In this document: positions 37,599-40,750 of the stretch, one piece after another
How positions within the stretch are numbered: the first letter of the stretch is position 1
Layout: every line of letters begins with the position of its first letter
NCBI GenBank assembly: GCA_003973485.1
Contig: QNXU01000269.1
Coordinates: forward strand, 1-40,750
Length of the DNA: 40,750 nucleotides
Reading direction: 5' to 3'
From: Bacteroidota bacterium
GTDB lineage: Bacteria > Bacteroidota > Bacteroidia > Cytophagales > Cyclobacteriaceae
Notes under the pieces: model-generated
Databases searched by the model: none
The model's input: the letters and a program-made list of their open reading frames with translations, nothing else
Told to the model about the DNA's origin: nothing
Made by a program: the position numbers and the translations under genes

Positions 37599-38462
37599 TT
37601 AATACTTTAACAAAACTTTCCAAGCTTCCATCACTTTGTTCTCTTCTAGTAATTGATGAGCAATTTTATGTAAATCATCTGCATTGTTTTTATCATATTT
37701 GACAGAAATCATTACGCTCTCTAATTCTGAAGCTACAGGTATTTTCTCAATATTGCCTAATTTCCCTAGGTCATTTCCTGATAGGATATCACTATTTTTT
37801 ATCTCTTCAGGCAAAGCATCAACTCCAATTCCAAGCTTTTGCAATGGTTTCTCTACTTCGAATAATGCATTCTTAGAACGGCTATACCAATTTCCGCCTA
37901 ATCTTCCTATAGGATCCAATTTAAAAGGGTCAATTTTTCCATTTTCATCTAATATCGCTTCATTCAGGTGAATATGAATTACTTCACAGATAATAAGATT
38001 GCCAGCTCCACCATCTTCTCCTGTTTCTATTATCTGCTTCACCTTGCATTCAAATGCCACAGGAGATTCCGCAACTCTTGGAGGCTTTACTTTCGTAGAT
38101 TTTGCCTCTGTAAATCCAGCTTTCACAAATTCGTTAACCCCTTTATCATATTCGGTAGAAGCCAATGACATTTGCTCAACCATTGGATAATTCGCAATAT
38201 TGATTACCACTTCCGCTACTTCTTTTACATTTTCATAAGAATGCTTAGTAGTGTTGTCTCTTCCTCTTCTGGCAGGTGAAAAAATTAAAGTCGGTGGATT
38301 CGATCCAAAAACATTAAAGAAGCTAAATGGACTTAAATTTACATTTCCTTCTTTGTCAATTGTACTGGCAAAAGCGATAGGTCTAGGAGCAATAGCTCCT
38401 AATAATATACCGTGCAATTCTGGGGTTTTGATGGATTTCGGATCAAATTCTTTGTAACTCAT
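37599..38462 (-). CDS. Flavin reductase family protein (FMN-binding split barrel)
   Basis: HGILLGAIAPRPIAFASTIDKEGNVNLSPFSFFNVFGSNPPTLIFSP. Confidence 0.93.
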   Translation of the reverse strand: MSYKEFDPKSIKTPELHGILLGAIAPRPIAFASTIDKEGNVNLSPFSFFNVFGSNPPTLIFSPARRGRDNTTKHSYENVKEVAEVVINIANYPMVEQMSLASTEYDKGVNEFVKAGFTEAKSTKVKPPRVAESPVAFECKVKQIIETGEDGGAGNLIICEVIHIHLNEAILDENGKIDPFKLDPIGRLGGNWYSRSKNALFEVEKPLQKLGIGVDALPEEIKNSDILSGNDLGKLGNIEKIPVASELESVMISVKYDKNNADDLHKIAHQLLEENKVMEAWKVLLKY

Positions 38463-38600
38463 GCTCGAATTTTGCTAAAGTTTTCTGAATATTCAAATGT
38501 TTTATGATTAGTCGTTCACTCAAATTCGATAAAGTAAGTTTAATTAAGCCTCACTTCTTCATTCTTCTCCTAAATAATATAAAAATAAGATATATTTCTA

Positions 38601-39125
38601 CCACAAAAGGAAAAGAATATAAAAAATAGCCAAAGGCTACTATCACATTAACCACTGAGTTAAACAGAGGTATAAACTAAGATCACAAAGATAATGTCAG
38701 GTAAAGCTAAATATTTCTGGGCAATGACTTTTAATTAGGGCTTGCTTAAAAAGTCTCAAGTGCCTCATATACAATCGGACTAAGTGAAGGAGTATTGGTA
38801 TACTTTGAGCTTTAGCCCGGGAAGTAGATGAGGTGCTTGAGGCTAGAGTACTAGAAAATCAAAAATTGATTTTCTAGTACAAACAATATTAGTTATTTCC
38901 TTAAAAAGACTTACACTAATTGAAAAACTATTATTCAATAATCACTACCAAAACAGGTATTAAGTTCAATTTTGTTAAATAATCTGTTTTTAAGCAAGCC
39001 CTAATTAAGCAATTTGGCATAGTAAGAATTGCTCAACAGCTTTAGCTGTTACTTTGTGGTCATTGTGAACAACTTAGAGAATCTCTGTGGTTAAAAGAAA
39101 AAAGCCTTAGACTTTCCTTTTGTGG
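38601..39125. repeat. Degenerate inverted repeat pair flanking the MITE-like element
   Basis: CCACAAAAGGAAA (38601-38613) vs TTTCCTTTTGTGG (39113-39125); TTAACCACTGAG vs CTCTGTGGTTAA. Confidence 0.55.
38731..39008. mobile_element. MITE-like non-autonomous element, ~278 bp
   Basis: TTAATTAGGGCTTGCTTAAAAA (38731-38752) / TTTTTAAGCAAGCCCTAATTAA (38987-39008), perfect 22-bp inverted termini; no ORF; internal hairpins. Confidence 0.75.
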
Positions 39126-39203
39126 TTAAGTTTTAGTAGTTAATTTTTCGCATTTCTGAACAGATTCCCTAAGGAGAAAGAAAATTGCTTAAGCTTAATG
39201 ATA

Positions 39204-40750
39204 TCAGTCATTCTCTTGCAGCCACATTTCTAAAACCAATAGTGCATAAATCATATAATCAGTATTTCTTTCCTGATATTTAGCTCCTTTCATCAACAAC
39301 ATGATTTCTGTATAATTCACATAGCTGTAAATTTTTGCTTGCGGATTAAAAAGTAAATCTTTCAACAATGCATTAAAATCATTTTTCAACCAATTTCCCA
39401 ATGGCGCTTCAAATGAAGTCTTGGGTGCTTGAGTTACGGATTTAGGGAGTTTATCTGCATAAATTGACTTCAATAAATGCTTTCTATTAAATCCTGAAAT
39501 TTTAAATGAATCAGGTAATTGGTTACTGAATTCAAATAATTGATGATCTAAAAATGGTGAACGCCCTTCTATGGAATAAGCCATGCTTGCCCTATCCATT
39601 TTTGCTAAAATACCTGAAAGAAGATTGAAATTTCTATCCCATTCCATTAATTGGTCAAGACTGGAAAGTTTGGAGTTAAAATGTTTATTTAAAAGATCTA
39701 AAGAGGAGGTTTTGATTTCATTTTGATTGCTCCAAAAGAATGACATATCAGTATCTTGAAACATGTCAGTGGTATATAATAAATATCTTTGGTTGGCTGG
39801 TAATGCCGAAATTCTGGATATCCTATTTAAAAAGCCCAGTTTTGATCGTCTTTTTCCTATTGGTAGTAGCGATTTTAAATATTTTGTAAAGGCAAGATAA
39901 TTGATGTTTTTGGCTGTGAAGTATCTTCTGTAACCTCCAAATAATTCATCACCTCCATCTCCATTGAGCATTACTTTAACATGTTGAGAAGAGGCTTCGG
40001 CTATAGCTAAGTTTGGTAAAGCACTACTGTCCGCCATGGGTTGACCAAAGGTATTGATTGATTTTTCGAGTAATGCCAGCGGACTTTTATCAATTTTTAT
40101 GATTTCATGTTTCAAACCAAACTGATTTGCAGTCTCTTTGGCGATTTTGCTTTCATTTTGTGTGGTTTGAAAAGGATATTCCACCGTAAATGCTTTTAGA
40201 TTTTGCTCATGCTTTGAAGCTTCATAAGCAATTACAGAGCTATCCCATCCACCCGATAGAAACAGACCTTTCTCAACATCTGCTCTTAATCTGATTTTAA
40301 CAGAATCTTCAATCTTAAGCTGTGTTTTTTTCTTTGCTTCATCAAAGGAGATTTCTTCTTTTGGTTGATACTGATGTTTCCAATAAGGGTAAATAGTTAA
40401 TTTTCCTTTTTGATATTTTAAGTAATGTGCAGGAGGGATGGCAAAAACATTATGATAGATGGTTTCAGGCTCTGGAATATTGGAGAAGCATAAATAATGG
40501 TATATAGCATTTTTATTAATTTCAACTTCAGCATTACTTAGCTCCATTAATTTTCTTAGACTCTTCAATTCAGAAGCGAAAAGTAGAATATCTTCATCTT
40601 GATAGTAGTATAAAGGCTTTTGCCCCATTCTGTCCCTTGCCAATAAAAAGCTATCCTCTTTCTCATCATAAAAAGCAAAGGCAAACATTCCTCTAAGAGT
40701 TTCTAAAGCTTTATGGATTCCTTTTCTTAAAATTAGTTGAAAAAGAATAT
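39204..40750 (-). CDS. asnB: Asparagine synthase (glutamine-hydrolyzing), N-terminus beyond window
   Basis: RGMFAFAFYDEKEDSFLLARDRMGQKPLYYY, LFLSGGWDSSVIAYEA, LNGDGGDELFGGYRRY, SIEGRSPFLDHQLFEF; frame open to the window end. Confidence 0.92.
   Translation of the reverse strand, partial: ILFQLILRKGIHKALETLRGMFAFAFYDEKEDSFLLARDRMGQKPLYYYQDEDILLFASELKSLRKLMELSNAEVEINKNAIYHYLCFSNIPEPETIYHNVFAIPPAHYLKYQKGKLTIYPYWKHQYQPKEEISFDEAKKKTQLKIEDSVKIRLRADVEKGLFLSGGWDSSVIAYEASKHEQNLKAFTVEYPFQTTQNESKIAKETANQFGLKHEIIKIDKSPLALLEKSINTFGQPMADSSALPNLAIAEASSQHVKVMLNGDGGDELFGGYRRYFTAKNINYLAFTKYLKSLLPIGKRRSKLGFLNRISRISALPANQRYLLYTTDMFQDTDMSFFWSNQNEIKTSSLDLLNKHFNSKLSSLDQLMEWDRNFNLLSGILAKMDRASMAYSIEGRSPFLDHQLFEFSNQLPDSFKISGFNRKHLLKSIYADKLPKSVTQAPKTSFEAPLGNWLKNDFNALLKDLLFNPQAKIYSYVNYTEIMLLMKGAKYQERNTDYMIYALLVLEMWLQEND

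Follow-up and report, generated by a model that had tools for sequence, protein, structure and literature searches.

Bacterial MITEs are AT-rich, foldable elements that derive from IS elements and are bounded by terminal inverted repeats (TIRs), and transcripts of Correia/NEMIS and ERIC are processed by RNases (PMC10969869, PMC2229807). The Correia/NEMIS elements of Neisseria are short and IS-like, with TIRs and TA at their ends, and their folded transcripts are substrates of RNase III (PMC2229807, PMC10969869). ERIC elements are palindromic and have spread over several Enterobacteriaceae genera, and their insertions at 3' ends can change the upstream mRNA (PMC10969869). Their TIRs are short, 7 bp (PMC2229807). 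In the same phylum as the genome studied here, an IS982-derived MITE has been described in Cardinium; it is confined to one strain and presumably persists through its parental IS (PMC9769881).

Here, we analyzed a window, the whole stretch of 40,750 nt under study, from a Marivirga draft genome (3.68 Mb, 457 contigs). It carries an element that is short (264 bp), bounded by TIRs, free of a transposase and dispersed in multiple copies with target duplications. With a probability of about 85%, we consider it to be a non-autonomous IS5-family MITE that is moved in trans and whose internal module, P1, is selected for a fold on one strand. Similar to Correia/NEMIS, it is IS-like and foldable and has TIRs and TA at its ends. 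However, the fold of Correia/NEMIS consists of the paired TIRs, whereas this element has an internal one-sided module and IS5 ends and belongs to a different phylum. ERIC is likewise a palindromic element dispersed in several genera, but its TIRs are shorter. To our knowledge, IS5 ends are not known for ERIC. The parental IS of the Cardinium MITE is of the IS982 family, and the consulted parts of that paper do not mention a conserved RNA module (PMC9769881). The NF033578-type IS5 elements of Cyclobacteriaceae and their relatives (L172, L177, L301) have the terminal repeats and the TA-N(2-3)-TA duplications in common with the MITE, and near their transposase-proximal end they carry, as it does, the AAGTGCAAG box in a subterminal position. 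In contrast, they are ~1.6 kb long, contain a transposase gene and lack P1, while the MITE is mostly 240-290 bp across relatives and has no ORF. A non-exhaustive literature search, with ISfinder outside its scope, turned up no comparable IS5 MITE from Cyclobacteriaceae, and its conserved, strand-specific module appears to set the family apart as new.

Table 1. Features of the MITE and its target duplications in the window.
Feature	Position	Strand	Basis
Left target duplication TAATTA (palindromic)	38732..38737	.	TA-N(2-3)-TA rule over 116 copies
MITE proper, 264 bp, GGG...CCC	38738..39001	+	Complete copies in many genera share these boundaries
Left terminal inverted repeat GGGCTTGCTTAAAAA	38738..38752	+	Close likeness to IS5-family ends
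P1: hairpin of ~93 nt, interrupted by internal loops; outer arms 38755-38768 / 38828-38841 plus inner helices	38753..38846	+	Strand-specific, covarying
P2: 15-bp perfect arms, 3-nt loop	38848..38880	.	Sequence varies among copies, pairing stays
Right half, related to transposase-proximal (5') end of NF033578-type IS5, with decayed AAGTGCAAG box	38881..38986	-	
Decayed AAGTGCAAG box (intact form conserved at the 5' ends of IS5)	38909..38918	-	Window sequence and family motif
Right terminal inverted repeat	38987..39001	-	Exact inverted match to left repeat
Right target duplication TAATTA	39002..39007	.	Rule across 116 copies

An earlier note on this DNA had described an element of ~278 bp with perfect 22-bp TIRs. 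The inverted match between 38731-38752 and 38987-39008 is indeed exact (22/22), but comparison of complete copies showed that the TIR proper is 15 bp. The remaining 7 bp are the 6-bp target duplication TAATTA and one chance base; TAATTA is its own reverse complement, and thus the apparent TIR was inflated. The note had left it undecided whether TAATTA at the outer edges was TIR or duplication, and the complete copies (116 compared) settle this in favor of a duplication, which corrects the element to the boundaries in Table 1. A direct duplication of 6-7 bp flanks 72 of the 116 distinct complete copies, and 69 of these 72 have the form TA-N(2-3)-TA. The proposed lack of a transposase gene holds, as the element contains no ORF of at least 80 aa. 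It folds at z = -10.1 relative to 200 shuffles.

We searched the host genome and relatives for copies and found that the element is not single copy but multi-copy, with related termini. The host genome has related sequence at ~20 places, which comprise full-length copies, contig-end halves and short derivatives. The full-length relatives are on contigs C45, C56 and C104, and the short form (123-135 bp) lacks the left module. Contigs C23, C53, C69, C92, C94, C191, C230, C277 and C305 begin or finish inside the P2 hairpin (query ~126-151); the host assembly breaks at P2 of these other copies because P2 is a perfect palindrome. Within the genus set, 6 of 10 genomes match the MITE, and the congener copies that were compared occupy sites different from the window insertion. 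One other insertion site is common to three species, where L002 and L056 have the identical flank AAAGAACTATTGTACC and the flank of L057 begins in a matching way, which indicates that some insertions are older than speciation. A covariance model of P1 detected members in 36 of 297 Cyclobacteriaceae genomes, or 19 of 85 genera, and also in two genera of two further families. When the family was searched at the DNA level, most matches were to positions 1-116, which hold the TIR and the long hairpin. The complete elements of other genera share the same plan of TIR, module, second hairpin and IS-like right end. Viral contigs, plasmids and phages gave no hits.

The genes to either side of the window insertion encode a flavin reductase-like protein (37599-38462) and an asparagine synthase (39204-40688). 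This pair is syntenic in congeners, and the element is found between the two genes in none of them; in G008, the contig stops before the asparagine synthase gene. As for empty sites in relatives, synteny is kept and the element is absent, but a base-resolution empty site was not found among the loci compared, because a different interspersed repeat directly borders the element. The MITE is nested in this repeat (window 38525-38730 and 39010-39190), in which ACCACAAAAGGAAA occupies 38600-38613 and the complementary sequence 39113-39126. At the window locus, the enclosing repeat is present in G009 and missing in several congeners.

The ends of the MITE were compared with those of IS elements. 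Bounded IS5-family elements (~1.6 kb) have the ends GGG(C/T)(T/C)TGCTGAAAAA and the target duplications TAATTA, TAAATA, TATTTA, TAGTTA, TACTTTA and TAAGTTA, and the MITE follows the same rule. The match between IS ends and MITE ends is close, and exact in some cases only. For example, the IS L177 has GGGCTTGCTGAAAAA at both ends, and many other MITE copies have this sequence as their TIR; the window TIR is one base different. In G418, a genome from another family of the same order, eight identical IS5 copies are present, and the seven examined all have TANNTA duplications. In the same genome, the TIR pattern was matched 57 times in forward and 57 times in reverse orientation, with most of the matches in the inspected loci paired as MITEs, and roughly 50 MITE copies are present. 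One of these (L281 2526-2948) is 423 bp long and has an additional inner insert.

The inner sequence of the MITE is homologous to IS elements in the right half only, where a MITE relative (L112) and L177 are 71% identical over 73 nt. Of 100 MITE right ends, 42 carry the AAGTGCAAG box, at a distance of 61-85 nt from the tip. In the IS elements, it lies at 63-74 nt in 15 of 16 5' ends and in 0 of 16 3' ends, and its frequency in shuffles is 1.1%. The right half is, as judged by this homology, a remnant of the transposase-proximal end of an IS. Copies, target duplications, non-orthologous sites in congeners and matching IS5-family ends all favor the suggestion of the earlier note that the element is a non-autonomous transposon. 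From the IS5 ends, the duplications, the co-occurrence in G418 and the right-half homology, we infer mobilization in trans, probably by an IS5-family transposase, as the best explanation.

A 1.65-kb IS directly adjoins the C56 copy of the MITE in the host genome. Its protein (466 aa) was assigned to the NF033578 IS5 family transposases with 322.8 bits (NCBIfam cut-off 275), and relatives of this transposase were found in 44 of the 297 Cyclobacteriaceae genomes. We rejected this IS as the sole or general mobilizer because other Marivirga genomes yielded no full-length relative of it. A complication for the reading of trans-mobilization is that an NF033578 match (E <= 1e-8) was absent from 11 of the 18 MITE-bearing genomes checked, including two near-complete Marivirga genomes; the MITE copies there may be stranded because their genomes are without an NF033578-type transposase. 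A search for an autonomous element carrying P1 found none, and the long G418 copy has no transposase.

The earlier note had considered the interior of the element to be cruciform-prone. The two 14-bp arms of the P1 stem pair at 12 of 14 positions, as claimed, and both mismatches are G-U/U-G wobbles on the + strand. These wobble positions are conserved, with U-G in 15 and G-U in 16 of 17 modules. A structure-free alignment of the 17 modules gave a 30-pair fold in which 12 pairs were doubly changed; none of 500 shuffles was as good, and slid controls were far lower. When 78 members were aligned, by fitting to the covariance model and hence with a bias towards it, double changes were found at 21 of 30 pairs, and there were 294 compensatory cells versus 79 in shuffles. 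We then aligned 54 non-redundant members independently and without a structure. The fold persisted, G-T cells (180) far outnumbered A-C cells (20), and no consensus fold was obtained for the reverse strand. Of 100 elements, 99 had a stabler RNA on the + strand than on the reverse (mean -34.2 versus -22.2 kcal/mol). A cruciform would be strand-symmetric, and thus P1 is better read as RNA or single-stranded DNA. The palindromic pairing of the earlier note is confirmed, but its symmetric DNA cruciform gives way to a preferred one-strand fold, which suggests that the conserved structure is one of RNA (or single-stranded DNA).

Searching the window and relatives with the covariance models of Rfam 15 returned, at E <= 1, only unrelated low-scoring matches. 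The IS5 elements examined gave only TIR-level scores for P1, up to 23 bits versus 92 for a true copy. A nested small palindrome was observed in the P1 stem of L002, L006, L007, L004/L108 and L102, and also in L101, L106 and L064. These are CCTGCCAGAGGCAGACAGG or hairpins of the CCCG-N-CGGGACAAGTT type at about the same helix position; one is present in the C45 copy and absent from its two orthologous copies in other species. The separate perfect hairpin that had been noted, P2, is as described: 38848-38862 and 38866-38880 pair at 15/15 positions. P2 is (almost) perfectly paired among copies despite differing sequence (GCACTTG/CAAGTGC versus GTACTAG/CTAGTAC), and this pairing is kept by selection or by template-switch correction.

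That the whole structure is a chance inverted repeat or an assembly artefact is hardly conceivable. Copies from independent genomes, some of them complete, have identical boundaries, related copies carry target duplications, and the hairpin-linked assembly breaks spare the window copy; we rejected this candidate on these grounds. It is improbable, but less so, that the element is an ordinary MITE formed by internal deletion, with hairpins that arose as neutral by-products and a conservation due solely to recent spread or horizontal transfer. Stable folding and AT-richness are usual in MITEs (PMC10969869), and near-identical copies from recent bursts do exist. However, double changes at 21 of 30 pairs across genera are unexpected under neutrality and argue against a strictly neutral P1, as do its strand asymmetry and its absence from the IS elements examined. 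This absence also speaks against the proposal that P1 acts as DNA, in which an extruded or single-stranded hairpin would increase transposition as a site for the transposase or a host factor, with no function as RNA. Every examined P1 copy is inside a TIR-bounded element, its retention over ~20 genera is what a cis-acting transposition signal would give, and single-stranded DNA could be strand-specific too. Against this, the strong asymmetry and the conserved G-U pairs fit RNA better than a symmetric cruciform. Short P1-less copies also carry target duplications, and thus P1 is not strictly required for movement. We regard a purely DNA-level role as possible but rather unlikely.

It could instead be that P1 is a functional 3'-UTR element: after a sense insertion behind a stop codon, it would stabilize, process or terminate the upstream mRNA, and hosts would keep useful copies. 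The folding strand is the strand read from the upstream gene. Within 150 nt on the P1 side, neighbor genes presented 52 3' ends and 10 5' ends, compared with 42 and 31 on the opposite side (p = 0.0013), although these gene orientations rest on simple ORF calling. The bias was first seen in one set (39:6 versus 27:21), and the held-out half had the same direction (13:4 versus 15:10, p = 0.33). Because the held-out loci are not significant by themselves, a 3'-UTR role is only suggested, and we rejected the bias as proof of it. Moreover, both ends of the element favor gene 3' ends, a preference that would also be seen if intergenic insertions simply survive. This role of P1 thus seems doubtful to us, to about the same degree as the purely DNA-level one.

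We return to the reading of a trans-mobilized IS5-family MITE with a selected P1. From what was computed here, namely copies, ends, duplications, the relation of the ends to IS5, covariation and strand asymmetry, we infer a mechanism of trans-mobilization, transcription and P1 function. The element would have kept both IS5 ends, a short terminal repeat on the left and ~110 bp of the transposase-proximal end on the right, and the ~93-nt structured P1 module and the second hairpin P2 would have replaced the transposase gene. An NF033578-type IS5 transposase from elsewhere in the genome would bind the ends and mobilize the element, and insertion would leave the 6-7 bp TA-N(2-3)-TA duplication. 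P1 would be retained by selection on its one-strand fold, most likely as RNA in read-in transcripts from a neighbor gene; a Bacteroidetes-type promoter consensus was sought inside the element and not found. Tentatively, and at somewhat less than even odds, the modeled fold suggests that P1 may be a previously undescribed mobile functional RNA, a MITE cargo that would act on neighboring mRNAs or on transposition of the element itself, with a fold conserved in ~20 Cytophagales genera.

MITEs are usually viewed as decaying deletion derivatives with disposable interiors. Unlike most MITEs, this family keeps an internal module whose one-strand shape is preserved across genera while its sequence has changed, and it makes the idea of a selected RNA as bacterial MITE cargo directly testable. 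The P1 covariance model can be used to annotate a Cytophagales repeat family that is lacking in Rfam, and the family explains contig breaks in Cytophagales assemblies.
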